From: a bacterium
GTDB lineage: Bacteria; JAHJDO01
Reading direction: 5' to 3'
Length of the DNA stretch: 23,138 nucleotides
Assembly (NCBI GenBank): GCA_030611945.1
Contig: JAUWOV010000020.1
Span: 1-23,138 of the forward strand
Position 1 is the stretch's first letter, and each line of letters opens with the position of its first letter. A model generated the notes under the pieces. The model made no database searches, was not told the origin of the DNA, and saw nothing but the letters and a program-made list of their open reading frames with translations. The position numbers and the translations under genes were made by a program. Below, piece after piece: positions 3,953 through 21,683 of this stretch.

Positions 3953-3982
3953 AGGCTCCGTAGGCTTCGCACTAATAGCCAT

Positions 3983-6697: not shown

Positions 6698-7024
6698 ATG
6701 GAAAGACATAAGTCAGCTCTTAAGAGAGTAAGAACTAATAAAAAAAGATACAAAAAAAATAGAGCAACAAAGGCAACTATTAAAGCTGCTGTAAAGAATA
6801 CTGATCAGCTTATAAATAAAAAAGCAAGCGCAGCAGACCTGCAAAAATCCATAAGTAAATCCGTTTCTTTGATAGACAAAGCTGCAACAAAGGGGATTAT
6901 TAAGAAGAATACCGCTCGCAGAAAAAAATCCCTGATAATGCGAAAAGTGAATGAACATAACAAAGAAGAATCTTCATCCAAGAAAAGCAAAGAAATAGAG
7001 AAAACCGGTTCTACCAAAAATTAA
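6698..7024 (+). CDS. rpsT: Small ribosomal subunit protein S20
   Basis: Binds 16S rRNA in the small subunit. It has 108 residues and is very basic. The N-terminal HKSALKRVRTNKKR and the later IDKAATKGIIKKNTARRKKS are standard S20 signatures of the three-helix bundle. The last 20 or so residues (EESSSKKSKEIEKTGSTKN) are a hydrophilic tail beyond the usual S20 end. The tail's last 14 bases overlap the 3' end of the convergent LptE-like gene. The ATG has the good ribosome site AAGGAG and its own promoter, so it is a single-gene unit. Confidence 0.96.
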   Translation: MERHKSALKRVRTNKKRYKKNRATKATIKAAVKNTDQLINKKASAADLQKSISKSVSLIDKAATKGIIKKNTARRKKSLIMRKVNEHNKEESSSKKSKEIEKTGSTKN

Positions 7025-7511
7025 CAACTTCACTTACAATATTTCTTGCCAGATTTTCAATAGCCTCATCTGCCGCTGCTTTCTCCGACATTCCTAATCT
7101 GCCGGAAGTATAATAAGCAGTACTGCCGTCAATAGTCTGAGTCCAGATAATTTCATCTTTCTTAAGATTTCTAAATACAACTTCTGCAGTTACCACCATT
7201 CTATATTGTTCTACGTCATTATTTTTATCATATCCAAGCGGCTCCGTCTTGTATCTTATTACTTTCCCTTCAAGTATGGTGTCTGCTTCTTCATGCTTTA
7301 CAAGTCTCAGATTTCCATCCAGAATAAGTTCATTTATGACAGCATCTGTTGCTGTTACATGAACATTATGCTCATAGGTATCATTCTTAAACATTGGCAC
7401 ATATATAAAGCTTATTCCAACGCTTTTCACTGTGCTGGTAGTATATCCACATCCTGCCAAGACAATAGGAATTAAAAATACAATTAAAATTTTGGTTATC
7501 TTCCCACTCAT
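7011..7511 (-). CDS. lptE: LptE-like outer-membrane lipoprotein
   Basis: LptE plugs the LptD barrel that places lipopolysaccharide in the outer leaflet. The 167-residue product has a lipoprotein signal peptide with lipobox LAGC and lipidated Cys21. The mature part matches the LptE-family pattern: IYVPMFKNDTYEH, VINELILDGNLRLV, EADTILEGKVIRY and a C-terminal AIENLARNIVSEVVNFW. A longer frame opens at 7550, but AAAGGAGG at 7517-7524 sits five bases from the ATG at 7511, which also puts the signal peptide at the N-terminus. It is the last gene of the pilus-type cluster, which is unusual, and overlaps rpsT tail to tail. The family match is good; LPS transport itself is inferred. Confidence 0.82.
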   Translation of the reverse strand: MSGKITKILIVFLIPIVLAGCGYTTSTVKSVGISFIYVPMFKNDTYEHNVHVTATDAVINELILDGNLRLVKHEEADTILEGKVIRYKTEPLGYDKNNDVEQYRMVVTAEVVFRNLKKDEIIWTQTIDGSTAYYTSGRLGMSEKAAADEAIENLARNIVSEVVNFW

Positions 7512-7546
7512 TTTCGCCTCCTTTGGTTTGTTTGCTTTTTTAAGAA

Positions 7547-7762
7547 TCACGTCTTAGCTAATACATAGGCAATAAAGAATAAAAAAAAGCTCACGAGAAT
7601 CAGACATACGCCTATTCCCACTCGCAGTTTAAGTACAGTCTCATCTACTGAGAAAATACGATTTAAAAAAGCAGATAAGCTTAAAAGAACAAAGGGCAGA
7701 AAGAGCAAAAGAATGGAAAAAACTAAGCATAAAATCCCTATTTCTATCAAAATTATGTTCAT
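7547..7762 (-). CDS. Small two-helix membrane protein (copy A)
   Basis: A 71-residue protein with two membrane helices (about 4-30 and 47-68) joined by a short loop, LNRIFSVDETVLKLRVG. The same plan, with NR, then DE, then R and GI, occurs in the 79-residue protein at 13011-13250, so the two are probably paralogues. Its ATG overlaps the stop of the coiled-coil/TPR gene (ATGA), and the LptE-like gene follows after 35 bases. No known family is recognised. Position suggests a small accessory of the envelope machine, for example a platform stabiliser, but this is inference only. Confidence 0.72.
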   Translation of the reverse strand: MNIILIEIGILCLVFSILLLFLPFVLLSLSAFLNRIFSVDETVLKLRVGIGVCLILVSFFLFFIAYVLAKT

Positions 7763-8706
7763 TTTTTATTTTGAATCTTAAGAACCCACTCTTTTACCAA
7801 GGAGACATCTTTTGCGTCTGGAGAAAATTTTATATACTGTTGATAATGATGGACCGCCTTTTTATTATTTCTCAGATGATCATCATAAAGAACTCCCAGG
7901 TTATAATGTACAGCTGAGTTATTTGGGTCAAAAGAGAGGACTTTCATATACTCTTTTTCTGCCTCTTTATAACGGTCTGTTTTCTGATAAACCAAAGCTA
8001 ATTTGTAACGCATAGCTATGGATTCTTTCCGCAGCTGACGTTCATCTCTCTTTTTTTCTCCCTCAGCTATCTGTTTTAAAAGCATTGCTTGCTCCGATTT
8101 CTTTTGGGAACTAGAAACTTCTCCCTGTACTTTAGCAAGTTTTTTATTAAGTTCATGGATAGTCTCCATATACTCTTTCTTCTGGTTATCTAAAAGGGTC
8201 TGTAAGTCTTTCTTCTCCTGTTGCTGTCCTAATGTTTTTTGTTCCCACTTATCTTCAGAGATTTCCGTACGAGTTTCTAGCTGTTGTATCCGTTCTTCCA
8301 AATCTTTTTTTTCTTCAACTGCTTTAATCACTTTCTTTCCAAGTCTATCTTTATGTTTTCTTAATCCTTTTGCCTCTCCCTCCAACCGGTTTTTTTCTTT
8401 ATTCAGTCTTCTCTGTTTCGCCTTTAAAACTGCATGGTCTTTATCCAAGTCTTCATTTGTTTTCTCTAACTTCCTATTCTTTTTCTCTAAGATAAGAATG
8501 GTTTTTTCTTTTTCCTTTGATTGAGTTTCCACAGATTCAATGTAAGTTTCCAGCCATTTTGATCTCTGTTGACTTCTTTCTACTTCTTCTTTTAATTCCT
8601 TCGTCGCTGTCGCTCCCTCTTGTTTCTGGTCTGAGAAAGCTACACCAATTGGCTTCAGGCCTATAAGTAAAAATACAACCATCAAACCCACTACTCTTTT
8701 CTTCAT
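7759..8706 (-). CDS. Secreted coiled-coil protein with C-terminal TPRs
   Basis: A 315-residue protein with a Sec signal peptide (KKR, a hydrophobic run, then AFS), a long charged coiled coil at about 35-225 rich in K, E, Q and R, and two or more tetratricopeptide units from about 230 (YKLALVYQKTDRYKEAEKEYMKV, then YNLGVLYDD). There is no lipobox Cys. An outer ATG at 8736 overlaps the secretin stop, but AGGAG at 8715-8719, eight bases ahead of the ATG at 8706, and a clean signal peptide favour 8706. It lies directly after the secretin gene. Known PilQ pilotins (PilF, PilW, Tgl) are TPR lipoproteins, so a role in secretin assembly or in spanning the periplasm is plausible but not shown. Confidence 0.8.
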   Translation of the reverse strand: MKKRVVGLMVVFLLIGLKPIGVAFSDQKQEGATATKELKEEVERSQQRSKWLETYIESVETQSKEKEKTILILEKKNRKLEKTNEDLDKDHAVLKAKQRRLNKEKNRLEGEAKGLRKHKDRLGKKVIKAVEEKKDLEERIQQLETRTEISEDKWEQKTLGQQQEKKDLQTLLDNQKKEYMETIHELNKKLAKVQGEVSSSQKKSEQAMLLKQIAEGEKKRDERQLRKESIAMRYKLALVYQKTDRYKEAEKEYMKVLSFDPNNSAVHYNLGVLYDDHLRNNKKAVHHYQQYIKFSPDAKDVSLVKEWVLKIQNKK

Positions 8707-8732
8707 AACTCTATCTCCTATGTTTTTACATT

Positions 8733-10235
8733 TCATCTACTCATTTTCTCCTTCAGTTTCTTAGGTCTCAGCCCAAACTCTTTCTTCAATTTTTTAGAAG
8801 TTTCTTCAAGGCTGCTTCTTTCTCCTTCAGTAAGCTTGGGAGTATCCATTATTGTTGGTGTAATGAAGATGAGCAATTCCATTTTTTCAGTTACTTTTTT
8901 CTCTCTCCTGAAAAGCCATCCCAAAATCGGAATATCGCCAATAAGAGGAACTTTATAGTGTATTACGGTTTCCTTATTCTTTATAAGTCCGCCAATTACA
9001 ATCGTCTCCCCGCTATTGACAGTTATATTCGTATCAAGCTCCCTTGTTGTGATTCGGTTCACTGTTAAAAAGCTGCCTGTAACCTCATCCCCAAGTTCAG
9101 TTACTGCAGGATGAATTGACATATTAACCCTGCCGTCTTCCCATATTATAGGAACAACCTTTAATGTTATGCCAATCGGTTCATAATGGGCAAGCGATTC
9201 ACTTGTGACCGCTCCTGTTTCAGGTGAAACATCGGTTGTCAGTATTGGGTATTTCTCTCCCACAAGAATTGTAGCTTCATGCCCGTTAATAACCAGTATT
9301 TTAGGATTTGAGAGGATATTTGCCTTGCCTTTCTCTTCCAATGCGTTAATAGCTGCTTCAAAACTTGGAGCTTTTAGGCGTTTGTACGTAGCTGTAAGCC
9401 CTGTAAAACCTGCTGAAGGGGCTGTTACAGTTCCCCCTACTGTCGCTGCGCTTAATTCCTGTCTGCCTTTGCACCCAATAAGAATGTCTCCCAGCGCGTC
9501 CCCTGCCTTGTTAAGAGTTGTCCAGTCAATCCCTATATCCCTTGTCAGGTCATGGCTTACCTCTACAATTAAGGTTTGAATAAGAACCTGTTTTGGAGGA
9601 TTATCAAGTTCTTCAACAAGTTGTCTTATCTTCGTGAGATACTCAGGAAAATCTCTCACTATGAGTATCCTTGAAAATTCTTCCTTTTTGTTCTCAGTTC
9701 TCGGGACAACTCCCATAGTCGCTTCGCCGCCTATTCCTCCTACCGGCCAGCCGCTGCGTATGGTGCTGTAATAAACAGTTGTGCTTCCTTTTGATGAGAG
9801 CAAACTTTTAACAACCTTTTCAATCTCTTCTGCGTTTACATATTTCAGATAAAAAATCTCAGTAGTTGTTCCGAGAACCGCTTCGTCTTCTGCCTCTTTC
9901 AAAGATTTCAATCTTTCCAAACTGCCTACTTCAATAATATTGCCTCTCTTCAAGTATCCAAAATCTTCCGTCCCCAAAATAACCCTGAGAGCATTCTCTA
10001 ATCTTACCTGATCAAGATGAACAGTTACTTCGCCCTTTACCTCATCACTTACAATGATATTAAGATTATGCTGCTCTGCCAGAACCCGAAGGATATCTCT
10101 AATCTCAGTATTGTCAAAATCCAAGCTGATTAAGAGCTCTTCCTCTGAATACAATATTCCATTCCCTATCCATAGAGGAAACAGAAAAAGCATAATTAAT
10201 AACAGAACAAAAAATTTGCGAATTGCCTTATCCAT
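8733..10235 (-). CDS. pilQ: Type IV pilus-type secretin
   Basis: Forms the gated outer-membrane channel for a pilus or secreted substrate. It has 500 residues: signal peptide at 1-30; a secretin/TonB short N-terminal (N0) domain at about 35-100 (LDFDNTEIRDILRVLAEQ); one N1-type domain at about 125-215 (IFYLKYVNAEEIEKVVKSLL); then the secretin core to about 465, with VPLIGDIPILGWLF at 429-442, the family signature. There is only one N1 domain and no AMIN domain, so it is shorter than Proteobacterial PilQ, and it lacks the N2-N3 domains of GspD. A TTG nine bases upstream (10244) is a possible alternative start. The PilP-like gene ends 14 bases upstream and the next gene lies in a 4-base overlap frame. 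Confidence 0.93.
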   Translation of the reverse strand: MDKAIRKFFVLLLIMLFLFPLWIGNGILYSEEELLISLDFDNTEIRDILRVLAEQHNLNIIVSDEVKGEVTVHLDQVRLENALRVILGTEDFGYLKRGNIIEVGSLERLKSLKEAEDEAVLGTTTEIFYLKYVNAEEIEKVVKSLLSSKGSTTVYYSTIRSGWPVGGIGGEATMGVVPRTENKKEEFSRILIVRDFPEYLTKIRQLVEELDNPPKQVLIQTLIVEVSHDLTRDIGIDWTTLNKAGDALGDILIGCKGRQELSAATVGGTVTAPSAGFTGLTATYKRLKAPSFEAAINALEEKGKANILSNPKILVINGHEATILVGEKYPILTTDVSPETGAVTSESLAHYEPIGITLKVVPIIWEDGRVNMSIHPAVTELGDEVTGSFLTVNRITTRELDTNITVNSGETIVIGGLIKNKETVIHYKVPLIGDIPILGWLFRREKKVTEKMELLIFITPTIMDTPKLTEGERSSLEETSKKLKKEFGLRPKKLKEKMSR

Positions 10236-10249
10236 TTTTCTCAACCTAT

Positions 10250-10738
10250 TTATTCCTGTGTAAGTATAAGTTCCTTTCCGTCCTTTGTCAAAACAACTCT
10301 ATTTTTCTGAATACTGATAACTTTATATTCTCCAACCGCATCCCCTTCTTTTACTATTTTATCCCCAATCAGCGCCATAGGAGTCTTCCCTTTCCACGCT
10401 ATGCCTTTAAGAGCAAGAGAAGCAATATGATGTCCTTTCATCTGTCCTTCTTTTCCTTCTGAAATTTCAGATGAAGGAAAGAATGGGTCTCTTCCATATT
10501 GTTCAGAAGCTTTTTCTTTTTGAAGAGAAATAATTTTCTTCAGTTCAGGAGCAACTTTGGATGACAGGATAACCGCTTTCTGCTTTTCTTTCTTTTGTTT
10601 TTCAACAGAAACTGTACTCTTTCCTTCTTTTGCGGGAGATGCCTTCTTTTTTGCTTTTCCTACTTGATTAATAACAACAAATACCAAAACACCCACTAGA
10701 ACGACAGTCATTATTAACTCTTTAGCAGTTTTACTCAT
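10250..10738 (-). CDS. pilP: PilP/GspC-like periplasmic linker protein
   Basis: A 162-residue protein with one N-terminal membrane helix (about 8-26), a Lys-rich linker, YGRDPFFPSSE at about 81-91 and a C-terminal beta domain (ALKGIAWKGKTPMALIGD, then VKEGDAVGEYKVISI and a final VVLTKDGKELIL). This HR-type domain is shared by PilP and GspC and binds the N-terminal domains of the secretin. True PilP is usually a lipoprotein; here a membrane helix takes that place, which is more like GspC. Its ATG overlaps the pilO stop (ATGA) and the secretin gene follows at once. The family call is from pattern and order. Confidence 0.84.
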   Translation of the reverse strand: MSKTAKELIMTVVLVGVLVFVVINQVGKAKKKASPAKEGKSTVSVEKQKKEKQKAVILSSKVAPELKKIISLQKEKASEQYGRDPFFPSSEISEGKEGQMKGHHIASLALKGIAWKGKTPMALIGDKIVKEGDAVGEYKVISIQKNRVVLTKDGKELILTQE

Positions 10739-11292
10739 TTTCCCGATTCATTTGTAGATAGAAAATAACTGCTCATTATCAGACGAACCATAAGATAAGG
10801 AGCTATTTTCTCGTCCTTTTCAATTTTTAGGTCCTGCACCTTAAATAAGAGAGGTAATTTACTAACGCTCTCCAAATAGTTAGCTAAGGCAAGATAAGTA
10901 AAACAAGCAACAATTTCAATATCCATTCTGCCTATTTCCTCTTCCTCTGTTTTTTCTTTTATATTCGGCGTTAGAGAGATTAATTTTACGTCCAATTTAT
11001 TAAGCTCTCTACTCAATTGGTCAACAATCTCAGGAACATTCACTGTATCCGGCAGTTTTTTATTAAGAGAAGAAAAGCTGCTTTTAGCTTCCTCTATTTT
11101 TTTATGTATTACAGGCAAGGTTGTTACTTCCTTCCGAGCTTTTTCCAATTTGGTTTGAACAGACTCTAAATCCTTCCTCAGTCCATTCAACTCTTTGTTC
11201 CTTGGTAAAAAACCAAAAAAGAAAAATAGAATTAAAGCAATTAATATTACTCCTAAAACTATGAAACTTTTTTCCTGAGGTCCAATCTTCAT
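10735..11292 (-). CDS. pilO: PilO-like inner-membrane platform protein
   Basis: A 185-residue single-pass protein with a short cytoplasmic start, a membrane helix at about 9-29, a coiled coil at about 31-80, and a ferredoxin-like periplasmic domain. LPDTVNVPEIVDQLSRELNK is typical of PilO, as is YLALANYLESVSKLPLLFKV in the second half. PilO pairs with PilN and positions PilP beneath the secretin. AAGG lies six bases ahead of the ATG. The PilMN fusion gene ends 18 bases upstream, and the stop overlaps the pilP start. Confidence 0.9.
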   Translation of the reverse strand: MKIGPQEKSFIVLGVILIALILFFFFGFLPRNKELNGLRKDLESVQTKLEKARKEVTTLPVIHKKIEEAKSSFSSLNKKLPDTVNVPEIVDQLSRELNKLDVKLISLTPNIKEKTEEEEIGRMDIEIVACFTYLALANYLESVSKLPLLFKVQDLKIEKDEKIAPYLMVRLIMSSYFLSTNESGK

Positions 11293-11310
11293 CTTTTGCC
11301 TTTTTACTTT

Positions 11311-13014
11311 TTAATATACTATTTTACAATTCAGTTCAAAATCTGCTTTTCCAGTTTCCATATTCTTTAGAAAAGATAACATCTCCACCTGAGAGAAAAA
11401 CGGAGAAGTTCTAAGCTGTATCATAAATTCTGCCAAAGGGAACTTTTCAATGGAAGCAGAAGAAACAATGCTTCCCTTCATAAACAATTTCATTGCTTCC
11501 TTAGAAGAAGTATCCAGCGACATAGAGCTTAATACTATACCTTCAGGAATAAGTCTGGATATTTCTTTCAAAACTCCTTCCCAAATGGGCTGCTTTCCCG
11601 CTTTAAGAAAAACATTCTTCATCATATCCACTTTCTTTTGCCAATTCTGCAGTTCGTCCAATGCGCTTAATTTCTCCTCAACAGGAGCTAAATATGATTT
11701 GCTGTTCTTAATCAATTCGTGTTGCTGTTTTATTTTTGCTGAGATCAATCCATAAAGAGAAAATAAAGCAAGAGCAAATAAAATAATCCCTATGGTAATA
11801 CCTGTTTTTATACTGGAAAGTTTATAGGTAAGCTTAAGTTGTGGAGGGAGAAGATTAATCTCTTTTTCCTTATCCAAAGCTGCTCCAAGAGCAAAAATTA
11901 GATCTGGTCCGATCTTCTCCAGATTTTCTTTCTGTTCAGGAGGCAATTCCAGAGAAAGATTTTTCAAGAGATTAAAGTGAATTATTTCTGGGTTTAAGCT
12001 TTTACTTAAGAATTCATCTAACCCCTTAAGATTAGAGCCGCCGCCGCATAAGTATATTTTATTCACTTTAGCATTGGTCTCTCTCTCATAAAAACTAAAG
12101 GCTCTATTTGCTTCTCTTAAAAATCGTTCAGAGAAAGGCCTCATCATAGCGGAAATTTGAGAGGAAGGAATATCTCCTTCAATCTCCTTTTTATCTTCTT
12201 CTCCAATTATTCCATACTCTTTCTTTATGGCTTCTGCCTGTGTCCAGGATAATGTCTTTTTCCCTTCCTTTGTAATTATAGGTCTTAGTAAAGCTTTTGT
12301 TATATCATCCCCTCCCATATATACTTCTCTTGTGAGTTGAAACTCGTTCCCTTTAAAAAAATTCATGCTAGTAACTCTGGCCCCAACATTCATGAAGACT
12401 GCCACTTCCTTTTCATCCACTATTTTAGTAATTTTCAGCAGGTTCTGGAGAAGATATCCAACTATATTAAAACTAACAGGAATAAGTTTTGCCTTTTGCA
12501 AGGTATCAACTTTTTCTTCTACTATTTCTTTAGGGCTGACTACTCCTATAATCCTACAGTCATTACTTCCAGGTAAGACAGTAGAACTAAAATCATGGAA
12601 ACTGGTTTTTAAATCAAAACTAGTTTCTTTCTTTAACCTCATTATAACCGCCCCTTCTAAATCTTTGCCGGAAAGGGCGGATGGCAAGGTGAATGAAGAA
12701 ACATTAATCTGCTGGGGACCGCTAACGAAAAAATTTACATTCTTACCTTCAAATTTACCATCTTTCAACATAGCTAGCAGGGTTTGAATGATAAAACGCG
12801 AGACTTCTTCCTTATTCGCTCTTATTTCATTAGGAATTTCTTTATAGGCTGCTCCTGTAAGGCGAGATCCTTTGAACTGAGCGATTTTTATACTGGAAAA
12901 ACCTATATCTAAACCTAAAAAGAGAGGTTTCAAAGTAAATCTCGTTAGAGATTTATTCCGTAACTCTTTATAAATCTTCGTGCCGCGTTGAACTAAAATC
13001 TCTAATGGAGTCAC
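11311..13014 (-). CDS. pilM-pilN: PilM-PilN fusion protein
   Basis: Two platform proteins in one 567-residue chain. Residues 32-381 are PilM, an actin-like ATPase fold, with the first phosphate loop LGLDIGFSSIK and the late CGGGSNLKGLDEF. Next is EINLLPPQ at 385-392, the motif by which the cytoplasmic tail of PilN binds PilM when they are separate. Then come a membrane helix at about 404-424, a coiled coil, and the PilN periplasmic ferredoxin-like domain to 567. The frame is open throughout, so this is a real fusion. GspL of type II secretion has the same order (actin-like, helix, ferredoxin-like). The GTG start overlaps the previous stop (GTGA) and has AGAGGA just upstream. Confidence 0.93.
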   Translation of the reverse strand: MTPLEILVQRGTKIYKELRNKSLTRFTLKPLFLGLDIGFSSIKIAQFKGSRLTGAAYKEIPNEIRANKEEVSRFIIQTLLAMLKDGKFEGKNVNFFVSGPQQINVSSFTLPSALSGKDLEGAVIMRLKKETSFDLKTSFHDFSSTVLPGSNDCRIIGVVSPKEIVEEKVDTLQKAKLIPVSFNIVGYLLQNLLKITKIVDEKEVAVFMNVGARVTSMNFFKGNEFQLTREVYMGGDDITKALLRPIITKEGKKTLSWTQAEAIKKEYGIIGEEDKKEIEGDIPSSQISAMMRPFSERFLREANRAFSFYERETNAKVNKIYLCGGGSNLKGLDEFLSKSLNPEIIHFNLLKNLSLELPPEQKENLEKIGPDLIFALGAALDKEKEINLLPPQLKLTYKLSSIKTGITIGIILFALALFSLYGLISAKIKQQHELIKNSKSYLAPVEEKLSALDELQNWQKKVDMMKNVFLKAGKQPIWEGVLKEISRLIPEGIVLSSMSLDTSSKEAMKLFMKGSIVSSASIEKFPLAEFMIQLRTSPFFSQVEMLSFLKNMETGKADFELNCKIVY

Positions 13015-13250
13015 AATCCTAATCCTCTATAGAGAATGAATGCGCCTGCTAAAAATAAGATTATTCCAACTATTCTACGATAAATAAAAGCCCTTTCGTC
13101 TGAGAAAAGAAGGCGGTTGCCTAAATTGTTTGTTTTTTGAAGCATACCTGGAAAAAACACAAAAAGCAGTCCTAAGAGAAAAAATGCTACTCCCCACACA
13201 ATACATACTATCATATCGCTAACTATACTTAAAACTTTCAGGAAAATCAA
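13011..13250 (-). CDS. Small two-helix membrane protein (copy B)
   Basis: A 79-residue protein with two membrane helices (about 10-34 and 58-76) around a loop, GNRLLFSDERAFIYRRIVGI. The loop shares NR, DE, R and GI at matching positions with the 71-residue protein at 7547-7762. The likely start is a TTG that overlaps the stop of the GGDEF gene (TTGA); an ATG at 13214 would remove most of the first helix. Its own stop overlaps the PilMN start. The tight fit between the cyclase and PilMN suggests co-translation with the platform. No family is recognised and no function is claimed. Confidence 0.72.
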   Translation of the reverse strand: MIFLKVLSIVSDMIVCIVWGVAFFLLGLLFVFFPGMLQKTNNLGNRLLFSDERAFIYRRIVGIILFLAGAFILYRGLGL

Positions 13251-14467
13251 GCACTAACCCGATTACGTCCGGCTTTCTTTGCGCGGTAGAGCGCCTTGTC
13301 TGCGGCTTTAACTACCTGATGCGGACTCGTATGGCGGGCATTTCGTTCCGCTACCCCAATGCTGATGGTAGTAGAGACTTTCTTCTGAGGGCTTTTAATG
13401 GCTTTTGAGTTTTGCGATTTGGCGCGGGAGCGACTGCGGATGCGGACAACAAAGTTAGATAATTCAATCTCTTTTCTTAGCTGCTCCAGGCGCGGTATGA
13501 CTTCATCCATAAATTTACCCGGGAAAATTATTGTGAATTCTTCGCCTCCATAGCGAAATGTTTTACCGCCTCCACTCACTCTGGACAGCTTTGAGGCAAC
13601 CATGTGCAATACCTGATCCCCCACATCATGTCCATACCTGTCATTAAGCTTCTTAAAATAGTCAATATCAAGCATTGAAACTGTGTAGCAATCCTCAAGT
13701 TTGAGAAGCGCCTCGTCTAGAGCCCGCCGCATTGGGAGACCTGTTAATTTATCTTGAAAAGCCATACTGTGAGATGTTTCAATTACTGAGACAATCAGAA
13801 TAAGACTAGCTGTAGCAAAGTACATTGTGGAATGGTATTCAACCCAGCCATTGTTTAAGGCAAAAAATGCCGACATCAATGCCCAGAAAAATCCGCTTTC
13901 AATAGCATCCCGACGCATAATAAAGCGAATAACAATAATGATGAATCCTGCTCCAAAAGCGAACAGAGCCGGCTGGGACATAGATATGCGGCTGAAGAGA
14001 CCGGTATCAATAATTGAATATTCAAGATAATTACAAATGTCAAAATAATGGTAACGACAGATGTGAACTACAATTGACGCCTGCAGGAGAATCAGACTCA
14101 TACGCCATAGACCGCGTATAGTTACAATTCCACGCTCCCTTATCAAAGAGAATACAGCAAGATTCAGCGGCAGCAGAATTGCTGCAGCGTTATAAACAAT
14201 TCGTCCCAGCCCCATGGACATCTCGCTGCCGGAAGCTAAGTGAAACAGCGAGCTATCAGCTAAAGCCAGAACAAGTATAGGGAAAATCAGTCTGCTTCTA
14301 TTGAAACGCCAGCCAATCAATATCCCCGTACCCAAAACTACATACGAATAGACATGAACAATCGCAGGCAGTGATTCAGCCAGCACGTCCAGGTGTACAA
14401 AGACCACTGCTATCAGGAACAGAAGACCGCCCGGCATGAAAAATGATAAGAGCGCTTTTGCAATCAC
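13247..14467 (-). CDS. Membrane-bound GGDEF diguanylate cyclase
   Basis: Makes c-di-GMP from two GTP. The first 230 of 406 residues form about seven membrane helices, a possible sensor. The GGDEF domain follows: DKLTGLPMRR at 239-248, the metal-binding Asp267 in SMLDIDYFKKLN, RYGHDVGDQVL, and the active-site GGEEF at 307-311. The product-inhibition RxxD site expected at 298-301 reads SGGG, so feedback inhibition is probably absent. A basic insert (VRIRSRSRAKSQNSK, then KSPQKK) lies near 341-363. The start is a GTG four bases after the PilZ stop, with no good ribosome site. The gene looks richer in GC than its neighbours and may have been acquired separately. It is adjacent to a PilZ receptor and pilus platform genes. 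Confidence 0.92.
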   Translation of the reverse strand: MIAKALLSFFMPGGLLFLIAVVFVHLDVLAESLPAIVHVYSYVVLGTGILIGWRFNRSRLIFPILVLALADSSLFHLASGSEMSMGLGRIVYNAAAILLPLNLAVFSLIRERGIVTIRGLWRMSLILLQASIVVHICRYHYFDICNYLEYSIIDTGLFSRISMSQPALFAFGAGFIIIVIRFIMRRDAIESGFFWALMSAFFALNNGWVEYHSTMYFATASLILIVSVIETSHSMAFQDKLTGLPMRRALDEALLKLEDCYTVSMLDIDYFKKLNDRYGHDVGDQVLHMVASKLSRVSGGGKTFRYGGEEFTIIFPGKFMDEVIPRLEQLRKEIELSNFVVRIRSRSRAKSQNSKAIKSPQKKVSTTISIGVAERNARHTSPHQVVKAADKALYRAKKAGRNRVSA

Positions 14468-14471
14468 AGAT

Positions 14472-15098
14472 TTATGTAATATAACCTATAAGAGTATTCC
14501 AACTGGCTTGGTCCATAGAGACAAACTCAAAGGCAGCTTGATATTTATCGCTTCCTATTGGATCCAAGCGGATTACTTTCCCTTTTGCTTTTACTGTCTC
14601 TTTTCCAGAAGGAATAAAAAGATTTAATTGAAAAACATCTCCTTTTTTTATTTCATTCCCCGAGAAAGCAGAAAGAAGAGTTCCATTCTCACTTATGTCC
14701 ACGCTCCATTTACTCTTTTCTTCTCCGCTTTCCCACCAGCACCTTACTGGAATCGTTGTTTTATATCTGGAATATTTTCTCCTTTTCTCCCATCCAAATT
14801 TAGCCTCTTTTACAGAAAAACTTATAAGAGGCAGAGGAGTTTCACTATAACGCGTTACAGAAGTATCAATTATTGGAAGTCCTTTTTCTGTATCAAAATG
14901 GGACATTAGGGATATTCTCAACTTTGTGCCGGTAGTAATTAAAGAAGAAATCTCTTCTTCGTAAGGTCCTTCTACTTTTCCAAGATTTGAAGTTATATCC
15001 TTTATCTTTGAGAGAAGCACATAGCGTTTTCCTCCGCTATGAATAAATATTCTCACCTTTTCTCCTGGTTTTAAGAAGCTTATCTCTCCGGGAAACAT
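14472..15098 (-). CDS. PilZ-domain c-di-GMP receptor (YcgR-like)
   Basis: A 208-residue cytoplasmic protein. The N-terminal half (FLKPGEKVRIFI and following strands) is like the PilZN/YcgR-N beta barrel. The C-terminal half is a PilZ domain with both c-di-GMP motifs: RxxxR at 107-111 (RKYSR) and DxSxxG at 134-139 (DISENG). It should therefore bind c-di-GMP. The reading frame opens at a GTG at 15128 without a ribosome site; the ATG at 15098 has GAGAGGTG three bases upstream and was chosen. It comes just before the GGDEF gene and is first in the platform gene set, so it probably links c-di-GMP to pilus assembly. Confidence 0.9.
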   Translation of the reverse strand: MFPGEISFLKPGEKVRIFIHSGGKRYVLLSKIKDITSNLGKVEGPYEEEISSLITTGTKLRISLMSHFDTEKGLPIIDTSVTRYSETPLPLISFSVKEAKFGWEKRRKYSRYKTTIPVRCWWESGEEKSKWSVDISENGTLLSAFSGNEIKKGDVFQLNLFIPSGKETVKAKGKVIRLDPIGSDKYQAAFEFVSMDQASWNTLIGYIT

Positions 15099-15172: not shown

Positions 15173-15610
15173 TTATGAAACCTTTAATAACTCACCTAAA
15201 ACTTGCTTTGTATACTTAACATTCACTTTTTCTGCAACAGCCTTTGTGTGAAAGTGCTTATCTCCAGTAACAAAATAATCTGGGTTCACCACTATAACTG
15301 CTGCCAGAATTTTCAAATCTTTTTTATGTTTGATCAATTTTTTAGCTTCTGGAATATTCTTAAGATATTCTTTGTATTCAATTATTCTATTAAAATCCTG
15401 TAAAGAATGTTCTAATTCTAAAAGAGCAATTTTTTCATTCTCAATTCTTAAGGAGTCAAACTTGCGGATAGCAACTTGTTTGACTTCAGAAATTACAGTA
15501 TCTGACGTAATTAAATCTATGTCTACTAAGGAAAGTAATTTTGCCTCATTTCCATAAAAAAAGGTTCCAGAGATTATTACATTAGTATCTACAAAAACTT
15601 TTTTCCTCAT
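15173..15610 (-). CDS. vapC: PIN-domain toxin (VapC-like)
   Basis: A 145-residue PIN-domain protein, probably an RNase. The acidic active-site residues are present: Asp8 in VFVDTNVIISG, Glu42 in VISEVKQ, Asp98 in HKKDLKILAA and Asp117 in YFVTGDKHF. Its ATG overlaps the stop of the upstream antitoxin gene (ATGA), the standard VapBC plan. The pair sits inside the minus-strand pilus-type cluster, between the minor pilin genes and the PilZ gene. Its targets cannot be predicted. Confidence 0.88.
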   Translation of the reverse strand: MRKKVFVDTNVIISGTFFYGNEAKLLSLVDIDLITSDTVISEVKQVAIRKFDSLRIENEKIALLELEHSLQDFNRIIEYKEYLKNIPEAKKLIKHKKDLKILAAVIVVNPDYFVTGDKHFHTKAVAEKVNVKYTKQVLGELLKVS

Positions 15611-15822
15611 CCTCTTATTTTTCTTGCTTCTTTCAACATCTCGTTTTCAGTAATTCCTAAACCCTTAACTAAACTGCGTAGATACTCTCGACTTTCCTCA
15701 GCGAATACCTTTTTTAATCCTTTAACTACCACCTGAGATTCGTTGGGATACAGTTTTAATCTTACACGTTCTTTTATCTCCGAATATAAATCTCCAGGAA
15801 CTCTAGCCTCTAAGGTTTTCAT
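15607..15822 (-). CDS. vapB: Ribbon-helix-helix-type antitoxin (VapB-like)
   Basis: A 71-residue partner of the PIN toxin. The N-terminus KTLEARVPGDLYSEIKERVRLK has the strand-then-helix look of a ribbon-helix-helix DNA-binding domain, and the charged C-terminal helix (YLRSLVKGLGITENEMLKEA) would block the toxin. The ATG has GGAGG ten bases upstream, and a promoter with a perfect TATAAT lies at 15853-15880. It is expected to repress its own promoter with the toxin. Assignment rests on position and fold pattern more than on motifs. Confidence 0.8.
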   Translation of the reverse strand: MKTLEARVPGDLYSEIKERVRLKLYPNESQVVVKGLKKVFAEESREYLRSLVKGLGITENEMLKEARKIRG

Positions 15823-15852: not shown

Positions 15853-15880
15853 ATTATACTTAAAATTCTTATAAAATCAA
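15853..15880 (-). promoter_or_regulatory. Promoter of vapBC
   Basis: On the minus strand, TTGATT (15875-15880), a 16-base spacer and a perfect TATAAT (15853-15858). Transcription would start near 15846, 24 bases ahead of vapB. Read-through from it may also feed the PilZ/GGDEF/platform genes, for which no other clear promoter is seen. Confidence 0.6.
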
Positions 15881-16003: not shown

Positions 16004-18376
16004 TTACTTCGCTTCTTTCCATGTATAGTTAAAGACAACTGCTCCGGGAAGGGCGTTCTCATCCCGGCGGTTGCGTCTGAATACCAAAGTATCTTTAGTA
16101 ACTCTGACATTAGATATAGGACTGGTGGTGTTTATCTTGATGCCGTGCTTGGCGGTTAGGTTTCCGATAATATTTAAATTGGTATAATCCTCTTCCTCCA
16201 ATCTAAAGAAACGATTGGAATGAATGCATGCGTAGATATCAGGCGGAGCTAGTGGAGGTTTGATATAAATTTGCTTTCTGAAAGTGTGTCCTTCAGTAGT
16301 GGTCACTTTAAGATTATACCACCAGTCTTCTGTTGAAGCAGAAGCAGGTAAAGCGAAACGGCATCGGATAGAGTTTGTGCCGTCGGGTTCACCTGTCCGA
16401 GGAAGATTGGGAGGATTAAAAGTGGTATAATTATTGACTTCAATTTGGTTGAAACCGGCAGTAGAAGGGTTATCAGCATACACTTCCAGATATACTGTGT
16501 CTCCATTAGAGAATGCAACTGTTTTAGAAGATTCTAGAAAAGTATTGTCTTCATAAGTCCAGATACTATGTTCTGGGGCAGAAGTACCCACAATCATCAA
16601 TGCGCCAGAACGATCTCGCAAGTTCCCACTGCGCTCTATCTCCACGTAGAAATAGCACCATTCATTATCAAAATCAATAGGTATATTGAAAGTTCTATAA
16701 TATTCTCTTCTACCTCCACCAACATCCCTCTTAAACATCGGAACACGATTGAATATGGTAGCATTGTAAGTTCCTGCAGTGATATAGCCATTCCATCTCC
16801 ATGCTTGGCCACCACCTCTCGATCGTATATAAGAGATAGTACACTGTTCCCTGTTATCAAACTCTATTTTTTCTGAGAGACTATCTACGCCCCCGTCTTT
16901 TATGTGTAATTCTCTTTCTCCTTCCGTATAAGGAGGCTCAACAATCAGATCTTCATATTTATATTTAGTGTCATAAAAAGAAACTAATGCCAATTTAGTT
17001 CTATTTCCACGGGCTGGTTCAATAGCTCCGGTAATCGTAATATCCCCTCCTCCGGAGATGATAGTCCCTGTTCCAACTCTCCCGGGATTTCCCGGGCGAT
17101 GGTATTTTACATTTCCAATCGTTACCTTCCCTTCCACAAAGATAAGGGCTGGACTGTTTGCGCTGCCTAATTTCACTAAATCGGTAAAGGTAGCGTCTCC
17201 GGGATGATAGTTTCCCTGAGCAATTGCCCTTTCCCGATAGTAGTCTCTTGTCTCATCGTCCAGATATGGAGGACAAATTGGGTCAACATAATCCTCCTTT
17301 CCTCTTCTCCATGGAGTCCCGGTCCAGTTTTCTGTAGTGCTTTCTCCGGAAGAATAAACCCGTCCGTCAACCACCCAGCCGCTTCCATCCTTAAAGAGAA
17401 TATCATTATTAGAATGAACATGGGCATTACCGTCGTTATCCCGTCTCGTAGAAAGATTATATTTACTTGCATCAAAGAGAAGGGTAATTACATCTGTCAA
17501 TTGGGTTGCTGTTAAGTTAGTGGAAGTTCCTGAATCGTATATTGCTTTATAGATATCCCCGCCTGTAGCCACCTCTGTCATGTCAGTTGGATTATTATCA
17601 ATTACGGTAATAGTGGTGGCAGTATTGCCAATAATGGTAAAGAGCTTCTCCTGACTGGTATTTGGATTCAGGTCCCTGCCTTTTAAGATATCCTCTGTCC
17701 AATCGGCGCTGTTATCGGTTAATACTGTTGCGGTAAGACTGCTTGATGTTCCCTGCGCGTAAACAGCGTAAGGGTCCCCTGTCGCGGCAACAGTAGTCAT
17801 ATCACCTGCTATAGTGAGGGTGTTTGCGGTATTCGCTGTAATAGTGAAATCCGTTGCCTGTCCTGTATTAGGATTGAGGCTTAAATTTACTAACTCACTA
17901 ACCGGCCAGGACGGACTACTAGTGTTATCGGTGTAGATAGCGTAGGTATAGACAGGATGCGCTCCTTCCTCAATGCCATAGCTTCCCCTAAGTTCTACCA
18001 CACGCATTGCGCGGAAATTATTTTTTTGCGGAACATAGCCTCTGGAGATTATAATCTTTTCATCCTCCACCTCATCGTCATAGACCTCTAATGTGTAGGT
18101 TCCAGAACCAAGCTGTTTCTCAGCAGTTTCGGATGTTACCCAGTATGGATCCTGAGTAGTGAGATACCAGACAGCATACTGCCTTCCTGCTTCAGCGATT
18201 TGCAGAGCCTGCTGAGACTGTAAAAAATTGACCTTGCCGGCGCTTTGCGTGGAAAAAAGCGGACATATCACAAGCCCCAGAAGAGAGAAAAGAATCAGAA
18301 CAAAAACAGCCATAACTGCTGCTATACCCCGATTATTGAGAGCGGTCAGGAAATTTTCCTTTTTCCTTTTTTTCAT
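16004..18376 (-). CDS. Large PilX/GspK-like minor pilin
   Basis: A 790-residue protein with a type III (prepilin) start: NNRG, then IAAVMAVFVLILFSLLGLV, and QSQQALQIAEAGRQYAVWYL at about 53-72, the pattern of PilX/GspK N-termini. Position 5 after the cut is not Glu, as in GspK. The rest is a very large beta-rich body, two to four times longer than usual. It contains two copies of a 60-residue repeat (about 164-294), then NAHVHSNNDILFKDGSG and later strand-rich segments with RGGGQAWRWNGY. It could be a tip adhesin or assembly-priming pilin. The ATG overlaps the pilW-like stop (ATGA) and has GAGG five bases upstream. It is last in the H-I-J-K-type set. Confidence 0.85.
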   Translation of the reverse strand: MKKRKKENFLTALNNRGIAAVMAVFVLILFSLLGLVICPLFSTQSAGKVNFLQSQQALQIAEAGRQYAVWYLTTQDPYWVTSETAEKQLGSGTYTLEVYDDEVEDEKIIISRGYVPQKNNFRAMRVVELRGSYGIEEGAHPVYTYAIYTDNTSSPSWPVSELVNLSLNPNTGQATDFTITANTANTLTIAGDMTTVAATGDPYAVYAQGTSSSLTATVLTDNSADWTEDILKGRDLNPNTSQEKLFTIIGNTATTITVIDNNPTDMTEVATGGDIYKAIYDSGTSTNLTATQLTDVITLLFDASKYNLSTRRDNDGNAHVHSNNDILFKDGSGWVVDGRVYSSGESTTENWTGTPWRRGKEDYVDPICPPYLDDETRDYYRERAIAQGNYHPGDATFTDLVKLGSANSPALIFVEGKVTIGNVKYHRPGNPGRVGTGTIISGGGDITITGAIEPARGNRTKLALVSFYDTKYKYEDLIVEPPYTEGERELHIKDGGVDSLSEKIEFDNREQCTISYIRSRGGGQAWRWNGYITAGTYNATIFNRVPMFKRDVGGGRREYYRTFNIPIDFDNEWCYFYVEIERSGNLRDRSGALMIVGTSAPEHSIWTYEDNTFLESSKTVAFSNGDTVYLEVYADNPSTAGFNQIEVNNYTTFNPPNLPRTGEPDGTNSIRCRFALPASASTEDWWYNLKVTTTEGHTFRKQIYIKPPLAPPDIYACIHSNRFFRLEEEDYTNLNIIGNLTAKHGIKINTTSPISNVRVTKDTLVFRRNRRDENALPGAVVFNYTWKEAK
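17495..17887 (-). repeat. Tandem protein repeat inside the large minor pilin
   Basis: Residues 164-221 and 232-294 both follow the pattern LNPNT-x-Q, FTI-xx-NTA, T-x-T, DMT-x-VA, GD-x-Y, GTS-xx-LTAT-x-LTD. The two copies are diverged at the DNA level, so the duplication is not recent. The repeats split what looks like a continuous stretch between YTYAIYTDN (143-151) and NAHVHSNND, suggesting an inserted module. Confidence 0.7.
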
Positions 18377-18879
18377 AGGTTCCTCGGATAGACCTGAGAC
18401 TGCAACGCTATCTCTTCATCTCCATTTTTAAGAGTAAGGTTTATCTGGATTCTTTTGATATCGCTCATAGTTCCAACGGGCGTGCTCAGGAGATTATTGT
18501 CTTTATCCCTGTATTGAAACTGCAGGGTAGTCAAATCAGAGGATACTAAAACATCACTATTGCGTTTGATTGTGTTACTATCCAGCCAAAATTTTATCCT
18601 CTCCAGATAAGCATCCTCAAAATCTATTTCCTGAGCGTCAGCAGTATAAATACTTTCTGCATCTTCAATCTGCCTGATCTCTCTTGACATCCTTCCCATA
18701 GCTAACTCCCCATCAGATAAAATAACCTCTCTTACAGTTACGAAGCTGTATACCTTCATCACTTCTAACATTAACATCGCAGTAATGCCCGATATTATGC
18801 CTGTTATCACGATTACCATGATAAGTTCAATTATTGTAAAAGCTTTGGAATTAGGAATTAGTATTTTTGATTTTTGCAC
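18373..18879 (-). CDS. Minor prepilin, PilW/GspJ-like
   Basis: A 168-residue prepilin-like protein. After a 13-residue leader it reads FTIIELIMVIVITGIISGI, with Glu5 of the mature form, then a globular domain (VREVILSDGELAMGRMSREIRQIEDAESI). The RMSREIRQ segment and third position in the set suggest PilW/GspJ. The residue before the cut is Ala, not Gly (NSKA then FTIIE), which prepilin peptidases accept less readily. It begins at a GTG three bases after the previous stop, with AAGGA nine bases upstream. It lies between the PilV-like and PilX-like genes with overlap at the latter. Confidence 0.85.
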   Translation of the reverse strand: MQKSKILIPNSKAFTIIELIMVIVITGIISGITAMLMLEVMKVYSFVTVREVILSDGELAMGRMSREIRQIEDAESIYTADAQEIDFEDAYLERIKFWLDSNTIKRNSDVLVSSDLTTLQFQYRDKDNNLLSTPVGTMSDIKRIQINLTLKNGDEEIALQSQVYPRNL

Positions 18880-18882
18880 TTT

Positions 18883-19398
18883 TCAGTATCCTTGCATCAC
18901 TGTAACCAATTCTATATCTCCTATCTGACTGTGGCTAATCGTTACAATAATCTTCTTGAAATCGGTATATTCATTGTTAGCAATTGGAGGATCCGGGTTT
19001 TGATGATTATCTAGGTCATCTGCGTTTACGTAATAAACCTCTACGGAACTGCTGTAATTTGGATAGCCGCTAATAGTGGACTCTGTCCAATCCTTAAAGT
19101 CATCAACGTCGTCAAAGGTGTTTTTATTTACTGCCACTTCACCTGCATCAATTCCTAAATTCTGTTTTAACGTCCACGGAGGACCACTACCAGCCACCTG
19201 AACTTCATCGTAATATTTACTCTCTATCTCTTCAATTAAATCCTGACCTAAAAGAGCAGCTGTGGGGACAAACTGTCCTTCAGCGCTCTTGCTGACCACA
19301 TTACTATACATAACAAGAAGAGGCAGCATAGCTATAGAAAGAACTACTATTACTATAATTATCTCTATTAAGGTCATGCCTCGCTTGTTAGCAATCAT
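18883..19398 (-). CDS. Minor prepilin, PilV/GspI-like
   Basis: A 171-residue prepilin-like protein with a short leader (MIANKRG), then MTLIEIIIVIVVLSIAMLPLLVM. Glu5 is present and Gly precedes the cut. Proline in this helix, AAL and the LIEEIESKYYDEV segment fit PilV/GspI, where the family reads A-x-x-LAQ-x-x-ME. Its ATG overlaps the FimT-like stop (ATGA). It probably forms part of the priming complex with the three neighbouring minor pilins. Confidence 0.86.
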   Translation of the reverse strand: MIANKRGMTLIEIIIVIVVLSIAMLPLLVMYSNVVSKSAEGQFVPTAALLGQDLIEEIESKYYDEVQVAGSGPPWTLKQNLGIDAGEVAVNKNTFDDVDDFKDWTESTISGYPNYSSSVEVYYVNADDLDNHQNPDPPIANNEYTDFKKIIVTISHSQIGDIELVTVMQGY

Positions 19399-19955
19399 TT
19401 GACCATTTCCATCCTTCCAGTATTAGGAGTTATCCGTATAGAAATTTGCTTACCGCTGCATTTTAGCACTACCTCGCCGGTTGCTACTAACGGCGTATCT
19501 GATGCGTCAGAAGGCGTACCAAAGCAATCAAATCTTACTTCATTTCCGCCTGTGAAGTTAGCTGAATACAGATCAACTCCTTTAAAATGTTCATCATCAT
19601 AATCCACAATTAAAGAAGCGCCGGGGCGATGAGGATTTTCTACAGGCGTATCTGCGCCGTCCCGATATACTGTGTATCTCTCTTGAGCGGGTTCAAATAA
19701 AATTCCGTGTGTCTGGTGTCTGGACATTGCCAGCTTTTGGGCGTATTTCATATCAGAAACTAGTTTTCGCCCTGCTCCGTCAAGCTTAAACGAATGGATT
19801 CCTCCAATTTTTGGTATTAGAACTACCGCTAAAATAGAAATAACCAAAATCACCATGATTAACTCAATTACGGTAAAACCCACGCAGCCGCTGGCTGCAA
19901 TTTTTAATTTTAAATTTTTAATTACTTTTTCTTTGTGCCTATGTGCCTTTGCCAC
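19395..19955 (-). CDS. Minor prepilin, FimT/GspH-like
   Basis: A 186-residue prepilin-like protein. It has a long basic leader of 26 residues ending GCVG, then FTVIELIMVILVISILAVVLIP with Glu5, then AGRKLVSDMKYAQKLAMSRHQTHGI, the hallmark of FimT/GspH, and a C-terminal FDCFGTP segment followed by VVLKCSGKQISIRITPNTGRMEM. The start is a GTG with AAAGG six bases upstream. The leader is coded by intergenic-type repeats (GGCACAAAG units), so it is longer and more basic than usual. It leads the four-gene minor pilin set. Confidence 0.87.
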   Translation of the reverse strand: MAKAHRHKEKVIKNLKLKIAASGCVGFTVIELIMVILVISILAVVLIPKIGGIHSFKLDGAGRKLVSDMKYAQKLAMSRHQTHGILFEPAQERYTVYRDGADTPVENPHRPGASLIVDYDDEHFKGVDLYSANFTGGNEVRFDCFGTPSDASDTPLVATGEVVLKCSGKQISIRITPNTGRMEMVK

Positions 19956-19966
19956 TTTGTGCCTTT
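19931..19966. repeat. GTGCC-type short repeats in the FimT-like start region
   Basis: On the plus strand the units are CTTTGTGCC (19931-19939), TATGTGCC (19940-19947), TTTGCC (19948-19953) and ACTTTGTGCC (19954-19963). On the minus strand they provide both the ribosome site (AAAGG) and the first codons of the prepilin. Confidence 0.6.
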
Positions 19967-19973
19967 CTCCATT

Positions 19974-21683
19974 TTAGATATTATCTTCCCGCCTTTCTAA
20001 TTTTTCAAGCAGTTTCTGCGCCGATTCTTTATTCAACTTCAAGTCTTTGTAAAGTATACCCAGCTTAAAACTGACCCTGTCCTGAGAGGGATTGAGTTCC
20101 CTTGCCTTTTCAAGATAGTTTACAGCCTTAATTTTATCGTTCGCGGAGCCGCTTCTGTATATATCGGCCAACATCTCATAATTAATCGCTTCATATGGGT
20201 TTGACTTAATAGCTTTATGAAATGCCGATTTAGCTCTTTCTATGTCTTTCAGCTTAAAATAAGTTTTCCCTAAGTTAGTCCACACAATAGAATTCAAAGG
20301 ACTTGACCTGCTTGCTTTTTTGAAACTTTCTAAAGCTGTGAGAAAATCACCCTTTTTGGACTGCAACTGTCCTTTCTCATTATAAATCTGTCCCTGATAA
20401 GGAAGGCTGCTAATCCAGATAGACAAAAGAAATAAAGTTATAAGACTCGGATAAAGAAACTTCTTGCTTGCAGCAGAAATCGTGAGATTTTTTACCCCTA
20501 AAGAGCTTTCTTTGCCAACGAAAGCAAAATACAGATAAAAAACTACCATTAGCGCGGGAATATATATATTGAATTCCAAAAAACTATGTAGAAAGAAACA
20601 GACTGAGCCCATTGCTATACCAATAAATACAGGTTCTTTTTCTCTTTTTTTGGAAATAATATTAAAGAGAATATAAAGATAAAAGAAAATCAGATAGATA
20701 AAAGCTCCCAGTCCTAAGAGCCCTGTTTCGGAAAGAAGCTGGAGGTAATCGTTGTGAGCAAAATGGTGAGTGCTCGTTTTGAAGCAGGGATGTTTATACT
20801 TGGGATAAATTTGATAGAAAGTTTGGATTCCTGTTCCGAAAGGGAAATTTTCCTTAATAATTTCTGAGCTCGTCTGCCAGTATTTGAAACGCGCCTGAAC
20901 ACTTGAGACTTTATAAGGGGACAGAAGGCTTTTTGTTCTACCGGTAAGCTCAGAGTTCCTAAATGTTTGATCATAAGTAAAAAGCAGCCCTAAAGAGATT
21001 ACTAAAACCAGTAAAGAAATGATGAGCCATTTCCATTTTAGGTATTTAATAACCAGAGGAATAAAAATTAAGAGACTTAAGAGAAAAACTAACCAGCTGC
21101 TGCGAGCGCCTGTCAGTAAAAGAACCAGAAAATTGAATCCTCCTAACCAAAAGAAAAATTTCCTTTCCTTGCCCAGACTTATAGCCAAAGGTAAAGTGAG
21201 AAGAAGATAACAGGCAAAATTGTTGTGATAGGCAAATACAGAATCAACCGCAGGAACTCTCTTTAAAAAATACTCTGCCAGTCCGTATATACTCAAAATA
21301 GTAACCCAGATAACCAAAATTTTAAAGATTGAAAGAAATCTGGAAGCAGAAAGAGTATTCAGCGCTACTAAAAAGATAAGAAGATAAGAGAAGATTCTCA
21401 TAATCTCAGTGAGACTGGAATAAGGATAAATGGAGTAAAAAAAGGACGAACCAATAATGAATAATAAGAGCAATAGCGGAACATAAAAAGGAGTAATAAC
21501 AAAGGAAATCTTACTGTTTCTGACTCCTTCTAAAATAGAGAAGAAGAAAAGAGTTAAGGAGAGAAGCAATGTTAGGGTAAGTATCTTTAAATCAAAGAAC
21601 CCATAATCAAATGGGGTAATTATGATTATAAGGATTAAAACATATTGTATAATTCTTTCCATAATTCTATTTATATTGTTCAA
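19974..21683 (-). CDS. O-antigen ligase-like membrane protein with TPR tail
   Basis: A 569-residue protein with about ten to twelve membrane helices up to residue 425, a large periplasmic loop with HFAHNDYLQLLSETGLLGLG at 307-326 (the Wzy_C/WaaL signature with the key His310) and Arg265 ahead of it, then three or four TPR units at 432-565. The family joins a lipid-linked glycan to another molecule: lipid A, a growing chain, or a protein such as pilin in the PglL/TfpO type. Position at the head of the minor pilin genes favours a pilin-related or surface-glycan role but does not prove it. It begins at a TTG, or at an in-frame ATG at 21662; neither has a good ribosome site. FimT-like coding follows 18 bases after the stop. 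Confidence 0.88.
   Translation of the reverse strand: MNNINRIMERIIQYVLILIIIITPFDYGFFDLKILTLTLLLSLTLFFFSILEGVRNSKISFVITPFYVPLLLLLFIIGSSFFYSIYPYSSLTEIMRIFSYLLIFLVALNTLSASRFLSIFKILVIWVTILSIYGLAEYFLKRVPAVDSVFAYHNNFACYLLLTLPLAISLGKERKFFFWLGGFNFLVLLLTGARSSWLVFLLSLLIFIPLVIKYLKWKWLIISLLVLVISLGLLFTYDQTFRNSELTGRTKSLLSPYKVSSVQARFKYWQTSSEIIKENFPFGTGIQTFYQIYPKYKHPCFKTSTHHFAHNDYLQLLSETGLLGLGAFIYLIFFYLYILFNIISKKREKEPVFIGIAMGSVCFFLHSFLEFNIYIPALMVVFYLYFAFVGKESSLGVKNLTISAASKKFLYPSLITLFLLSIWISSLPYQGQIYNEKGQLQSKKGDFLTALESFKKASRSSPLNSIVWTNLGKTYFKLKDIERAKSAFHKAIKSNPYEAINYEMLADIYRSGSANDKIKAVNYLEKARELNPSQDRVSFKLGILYKDLKLNKESAQKLLEKLERREDNI

Follow-up and report, generated by a model that had tools for sequence, protein, structure and literature searches.

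Genes for a predicted diguanylate cyclase and a PilZ receptor in one row with a putative type IV filament assembly platform

Introduction

In type IVa pilus systems, PilM, PilN, PilO, PilP, and the secretin PilQ are encoded in this order in one row (pilMNOPQ). In the mannose-sensitive haemagglutinin (MSHA) pilus operon, MshH is presumably a CsrD-like GGDEF-EAL protein, its GGDEF-type gene lying ahead of PilM-, PilO-, and PilP-like, secretin, and tetratricopeptide repeat (TPR) genes. This operon comprises mshH-Q (PMC7439477), and MshH acts on Csr RNA decay (PMC11386269). SadC contacts PilO in Pseudomonas aeruginosa (PMC11656802, PMC12533971), and FimV governs polar DgcP in Pseudomonas (PMC7033161). 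PilZ proteins work with PilB (PMC8389850, PMC11656802), and MshE binds cyclic di-GMP (c-di-GMP), for which the MshEN consensus has been published (PMC5013675). No paper describing a cyclase and a PilZ protein together in a pilMNOPQ-type operon was found in the open-access literature. Here I describe a row of ten genes in which a pilMNOPQ-like platform is encoded together with a predicted diguanylate cyclase and a PilZ receptor. The row lies in the bacterial contig JAUWOV010000020.1 (assembly GCA_030611945.1, GTDB lineage JAHJDO01), the 23,138 nucleotides of which are called the window.

Results

Ten open genes follow one another on the minus strand of the window, from 15098 to 7011, and encode a PilZ receptor, a GGDEF cyclase, a small membrane protein (sm1), PilMN, PilO, a PilP-like protein, a secretin, a coiled-coil/TPR protein, a second small membrane protein (sm2), and an LptE-like lipoprotein. 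The initial annotation had placed these ten genes in this order on one strand, and the open frames and the Pfam matches agree. It had also described mostly 4-base overlaps, which were found at six of the nine junctions (GGDEF/sm1, sm1/PilMN, PilO/PilP, secretin/TPR, TPR/sm2, and sm2/LptE); the other three are gaps of 4, 18, and 5 bases. The ten genes are probably co-transcribed. I read the locus as encoding the platform on which one of the cell's several type IV filament machines is assembled, together with its own pair of proteins for making and reading c-di-GMP. This reading is given an even chance of being right.

Compared with type IVa pilMNOPQ, the same proteins occur in the same order (PilM, PilN, PilO, PilP-like, and a PilQ-like secretin). 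Here, however, PilM and PilN are fused; PilZ, the cyclase, and a small membrane protein stand in front; the TPR protein and the second small membrane protein stand behind; and the motor and the major pilin are encoded elsewhere. The MSHA system resembles this locus in the GGDEF-type gene before the platform genes, as well as in the ExeA/MshM-like ATPase and the MshEN-domain PilB of the likely partner cluster (see below). It differs in that MshH is a GGDEF-EAL protein and not an active cyclase, whereas an intact GGEEF motif is found here and no EAL domain was found in any of the five genomes available for the genus. In addition, the MSHA operon lacks a PilZ gene, and the secretin here is nearer to PilQ than to MshL. 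Among the NCBIfam models, PilQ scored best (279.7 bits, just missing the cut-off of 284.35), followed by GspD (260), while the MshL model TIGR02519 gave 170.4 bits against a cut-off of 250.2, below the level of an MSHA-type secretin. The SadC-PilO pair likewise ties a membrane cyclase to the alignment complex; there a contact has been demonstrated rather than gene linkage, whereas the tie here is one of gene linkage. As in the PilZ-PilB-FimX system of Xanthomonas, a PilZ protein would serve a type IV pilus, but the receptor here is built differently, with an N-domain of the YcgR type and with its c-di-GMP motifs intact, and the genus yielded no EAL protein of the FimX type.

Is this arrangement shared? 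The phylum sample consisted of five genomes of a single genus (G000 to G004), in which G000 is the genome of the window (91% complete) and G001 is 62% complete. In G004, the unit was found on contig C44 in the order PilZ-cyclase-PilZ2-sm1-PilMN-PilO-PilP-secretin-TPR-sm2, with 76-90% protein identity and with an extra PilZ gene (PilZ2) between the cyclase and sm1. Since the order recurs in a second species at this level of identity, the gene arrangement is evidently not due to chance. In the place of the LptE gene (7011..7550; Pfam LptE 8.8e-14; overlapping sm2), G004 has a CsgG-like gene after a 176-base gap. Thus, the conserved unit evidently ends 3′ at sm2, and the membership proposed initially stands from PilZ through sm2 and not for LptE. 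The PilZ protein of this genome is 84% identical to its G004 orthologue and 69% identical to the paralogue PilZ2. The two first PilZ proteins share 84% identity with each other but 65-69% with PilZ2, which suggests that the duplication preceded the divergence of these species.

Orthologous PilMN, a cyclase with this N-domain, and a PilB of 613-615 aa were all not found in G001 to G003. G000 and G004 each have the platform, the window-type cyclase, and the motor PilB of 613-615 aa. The presence and absence of these parts seem to coincide, although a sample of five genomes is small. Synonymous divergence (pS) between G000 and G004 is mostly 0.16-0.39 in the platform (0.09 for PilP) and about 0.25-0.40 in other genes. 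A transfer of the platform between the two genomes was considered, as the pilin genes diverge faster, and was rejected, as the platform pS is near the genome baseline. The ratio of nonsynonymous to synonymous divergence (dN/dS) between the two genomes is 0.18 for the cyclase, 0.19 for PilZ, and 0.17 for PilMN. Judged from these ratios, purifying selection on the cyclase and PilZ is similar to that on PilMN.

The cyclase gene (13247..14467; Pfam GGDEF 8.6e-32; 86% identity to G004) encodes a putative membrane diguanylate cyclase with about seven transmembrane (TM) helices, as predicted by hydropathy, followed by the GGDEF domain. In both genomes the GG[D/E]EF motif and the metal-binding Asp are intact (FRYGGEEF and LDIDYFKKLND). 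No RxxD I-site was found five residues before GGEEF (VSGGGKTFRYGGEEF). The PilZ gene (14472..15098) encodes a receptor with a YcgR-like N-domain (Pfam PilZNR 4.2e-5) and a PilZ domain (Pfam PilZ 1.7e-10). Its start at 15098, as annotated initially, is favoured over 15128, the start of the longest open reading frame (ORF), by a GAGAGG sequence just upstream and by the G004 paralogue, which begins at the equivalent residue. The c-di-GMP motifs RKYSR (RxxxR) and DISENG ([D/N]xSxxG, DxSxxG) are present, and both are kept in all three PilZ copies, the one in this genome and the two in G004. By motif, the cyclase and PilZ look competent. No solved structure was matched by the PilZ protein in sequence.

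According to Pfam, PilM and PilN form one 567-aa protein (11311..13014; PilM_2 4e-28, PilN 9.4e-7; 90% identity to G004), predicted to comprise an actin-like cytoplasmic ring part and a TM/periplasmic PilN part. It is followed by PilO (10735..11292; Pfam PilO 1.6e-12; 89% identity) and a PilP/GspC-like inner-membrane protein (10250..10738; 88% identity), which was recognised weakly by T2SSB, CdsD_C, and GspC matches (T2SSB and CdsD_C below the cut-off) and by its position before the secretin (8733..10244; Pfam Secretin 1.7e-48). The coiled-coil and TPR protein (7759..8736; Pfam TPR_8 1.8e-9; 76% identity) occupies a Tgl/PilW/MshN-like position. The two-TM protein sm1 (13011..13250; 83% identity) and sm2 (7547..7762; 89% identity) are paralogues, with an alignment score of 67 against 32.9 ± 5.6 for composition-keeping shuffles, none of 2000 of which reached 67. 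With PilM, PilN, PilO, and a secretin encoded together, the row qualifies as a predicted type IV filament assembly platform, of the kind of type IV pili and type II secretion systems.

The survey of the linkage covered 20 kb of sequence at each of 80 canonical PilM genes (for the most part one from each family) and at nine loci from a PilMN search, 89 loci in all and all outside the genus. In this sample, which is biased to strong PilM_2 matches and contains some short contigs, a six-frame search found GGDEF near 4 of the 89 loci, at none of which it was both adjacent and co-directional; PilZ, sought with a local model trained on one genome, was found near none. Tiled ORFs, which fail in G+C-rich loci, gave equal counts. 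A PilZ motif search independent of the local model returned only matches that were spurious by eye, and as a control it recovered seven genus copies. The linkage of PilZ and GGDEF to a PilM platform is unusual. The initial annotation had named an order unique to this genome as evidence against its reading. The order is not unique, being found in G004, but it is missing in three of the five genus genomes and in all 89 outside loci.

The likely motor genes were found on contig C116 of this genome, in a cluster encoding a tandem receiver protein, a histidine kinase with a degenerate GGDEF domain, two receivers, a PilB with an MshEN domain, an ExeA/MshM-like ATPase, an NtrC-type sigma-54 activator, PilC, and a pilin. 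In G004, this cluster lies on the same contig as the platform, about 23 kb apart. Linkage and joint presence suggest that the C116 cluster drives this platform. In both genomes the cyclase and the receptor are encoded with the platform and apart from the motor genes, as the initial annotation had it, and pilZ is not among the motor genes in either. Like the MshE ATPases, the likely partner PilB has an MshEN domain; unlike them, it does not keep the Arg and Gln positions of both 24-residue MshEN motifs (RLGxx...LxxxLxxQ). A loss of c-di-GMP binding in this PilB was considered, but it scores 45.6 bits against the NCBIfam c-di-GMP motif model NF053729 (cut-off 38), and direct binding may have been either lost or kept. 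The likely motor cluster appears to carry c-di-GMP-type parts of its own, namely the kinase with the degenerate GGDEF domain and the MshEN-domain PilB.

The C116 pilin gene of G000, the likely major pilin, is preceded at a distance of 33 bases by an exact sigma-54 site (TGGCACGTATTTTGCT), which is found before this gene in G004 too (L078 8719-8734; L077 2942-2957), beside the NtrC-type activator. The rpoN gene lies in the window at 2558-3982. A sigma-54 promoter was also sought for the platform operon and was not found.

The histidine kinase fused to a degenerate GGDEF domain is found beside the motor genes (L078 956-2437; L076 14780-16255), and such a fusion recurs at C70. There, a third cluster (L079, G000:C70, 2876-14377) runs in one direction with a small PilZ gene, a histidine kinase with a GGDEF-like C-terminus, receivers, PilB, PilC, and pilins. 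In a second pilus cluster (L058, G000:C115, 9155-19422; also L060, L065, and L085), the secretin and PilB flank one or two membrane proteins with a degenerate GGDEF domain. This cluster occurs in four genus genomes, the G001 copy being split over C18 and C48. Thus, the GGDEF-pilus linkage evidently came about in at least two systems of this lineage. In total, 7 secretins, 12 T2SSE-family ATPase matches, and 12 PilZ matches were counted in 1.66 Mb, unusually many parallel filament machines for a small genome. Seven GGDEF domains were found in this genome, and GG[DE]EF is intact in three (the platform cyclase, C76, and C64). Turnover of c-di-GMP is possible through two HD-GYP-type proteins.

Upstream of pilZ, a pilin operon (16004..21683, minus strand) was assigned by domain matches to a Wzy/TPR protein, a GspH-like protein, a PilV-like protein, an N-methyl pilin, and a 790-aa PilX-like protein, in the same order as in G004. 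Pilin genes (window 16004-19398, L078 8767-9219) diverge faster than others (pS 0.46-0.63 versus about 0.3), and the PilX-like protein shares only 40% identity with its G004 counterpart; such divergence would be expected of tips that are exposed or recombine. A variable spot lies between this operon and pilZ. In the window it holds a strain-specific, toxin-antitoxin-like cassette of a PIN-domain protein and a small partner (15173..15822, minus strand; Pfam PIN_2 5.5e-7), which is not in G004; a retropepsin-like gene and others lie there in G004 (L055 15088-16560). A promoter-like site, TTGATT-16-TATAAT (15853..15880, minus strand), is located within a 39-nt element at the beginning of this spot, of which 37 nt are kept in G004. 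The 41-nt pilZ leader is kept at 40 positions, although the cassettes between the element and the leader differ. In the overall promoter scan, sites were no more frequent than in shuffles; it is only its conservation in G004 that makes this site a candidate. The platform unit may have its own promoter, behind which cassettes have been inserted.

Discussion

How might such a locus work? The cyclase would sit in the inner membrane with PilMN and PilO, possibly coupled to them through the small membrane protein encoded between. Its TM domain may sense the state of the envelope or the pilus, and c-di-GMP would be made beside the machine; lacking the RxxD feedback site, the cyclase would escape the usual restraint by its product. 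The PilZ protein, with its two domains, would bind c-di-GMP and act on the cytoplasmic face of the platform, that is, on the PilM ring and the docked PilB, and this action would switch filament assembly on or off. Catalysis, c-di-GMP binding, the contacts, and the direction of the effect are what I infer from the sequences. With SadC-PilO and DgcP-FimV of Pseudomonas as precedents, local c-di-GMP signalling at the platform is plausible.

Several points weigh against reading the locus as a platform with its own c-di-GMP pair. Gene order is not equal to contact. With two further intact cyclases and 12 PilZ matches in the cell, the c-di-GMP pool could be common. The N-domain family of the cyclase stands alone elsewhere, in several other families, with no pilus genes recognised adjacent (neighbour calls being unreliable in the G+C-rich locus L182). 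The linkage is apparently lineage-restricted, to two species of one genus. Single-sequence AlphaFold models of PilZ and the cyclase were too poor (mean pLDDT 42-43) and were not used for fold searches.

The initial annotation had suggested that local c-di-GMP may control assembly of the platform or secretin rather than just motor activity. A preference for the platform over the motor was not borne out: PilB docks in PilM (PMC11656802), and the likely motor cluster has c-di-GMP-type parts of its own. Since PilB docks in PilM, a platform-bound PilZ protein would also touch the motor, and the two cannot be separated by gene order. PilZ may then act on PilB, as in the PilB-PilZ-FimX system of Xanthomonas, with only the PilZ gene sitting with the platform. 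PilZ-PilB contacts are known (PMC8389850, PMC11656802), and the partner PilB is off the MshEN consensus at Arg and Gln, so c-di-GMP might arrive via PilZ. However, pilZ stands apart from the motor genes in both genomes, and NF053729 scores the partner PilB above its cut-off. I regard motor control as possible but rather doubtful.

The signal may also run from the pilus to the cyclase. The platform would sense surface contact and activate the cyclase, as proposed for SadC-PilO (PMC12533971, PMC11656802), with PilZ as a feedback element. The TM cyclase gene lies directly before sm1 and PilMN, and its GGDEF domain lacks an I-site, but the likeness to SadC is one of analogy. Such a direction of signalling is conceivable and somewhat improbable.

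Co-transcription may be all that ties these genes together. The cyclase and PilZ would be made whenever the pilus is made, and their c-di-GMP, as an output of piliation, would enter a common pool and act on targets other than the pilus (adhesins, polysaccharide). The cyclase family consists of stand-alone enzymes in other bacteria, and the cell has many other PilZ proteins. In Vibrio, no tested cyclase contacted MshE, and global c-di-GMP was proposed (PMC11656802). In contrast, a dedicated receptor lies beside the cyclase here and is duplicated around it in G004, and I hold a common pool to be unlikely. A chance neighbourhood from a recent rearrangement, to which the restriction to one lineage and the cassette insertions marking an active spot by pilZ could point, is very improbable given the order kept over substantial divergence and the purifying selection on both genes.

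If the platform does have its own c-di-GMP pair, its strictest form would be a self-contained circuit, in which a cyclase lacking the product-feedback site is stationed at the PilMN/PilO ring with a single PilZ reader or a pair of them, perhaps via the paired small membrane proteins, and only this machine among seven secretin systems is switched. I consider this circuit unlikely. Whether c-di-GMP acts locally or through a common pool has long been argued, and most of what is known comes from contacts between proteins of a small number of model species. Where one operon joins a cyclase, a reader, and their target machine, and the cell has many parallel secretin systems but few intact cyclases, the question finds a natural test case, and the proteins to use in contact and binding assays are defined.

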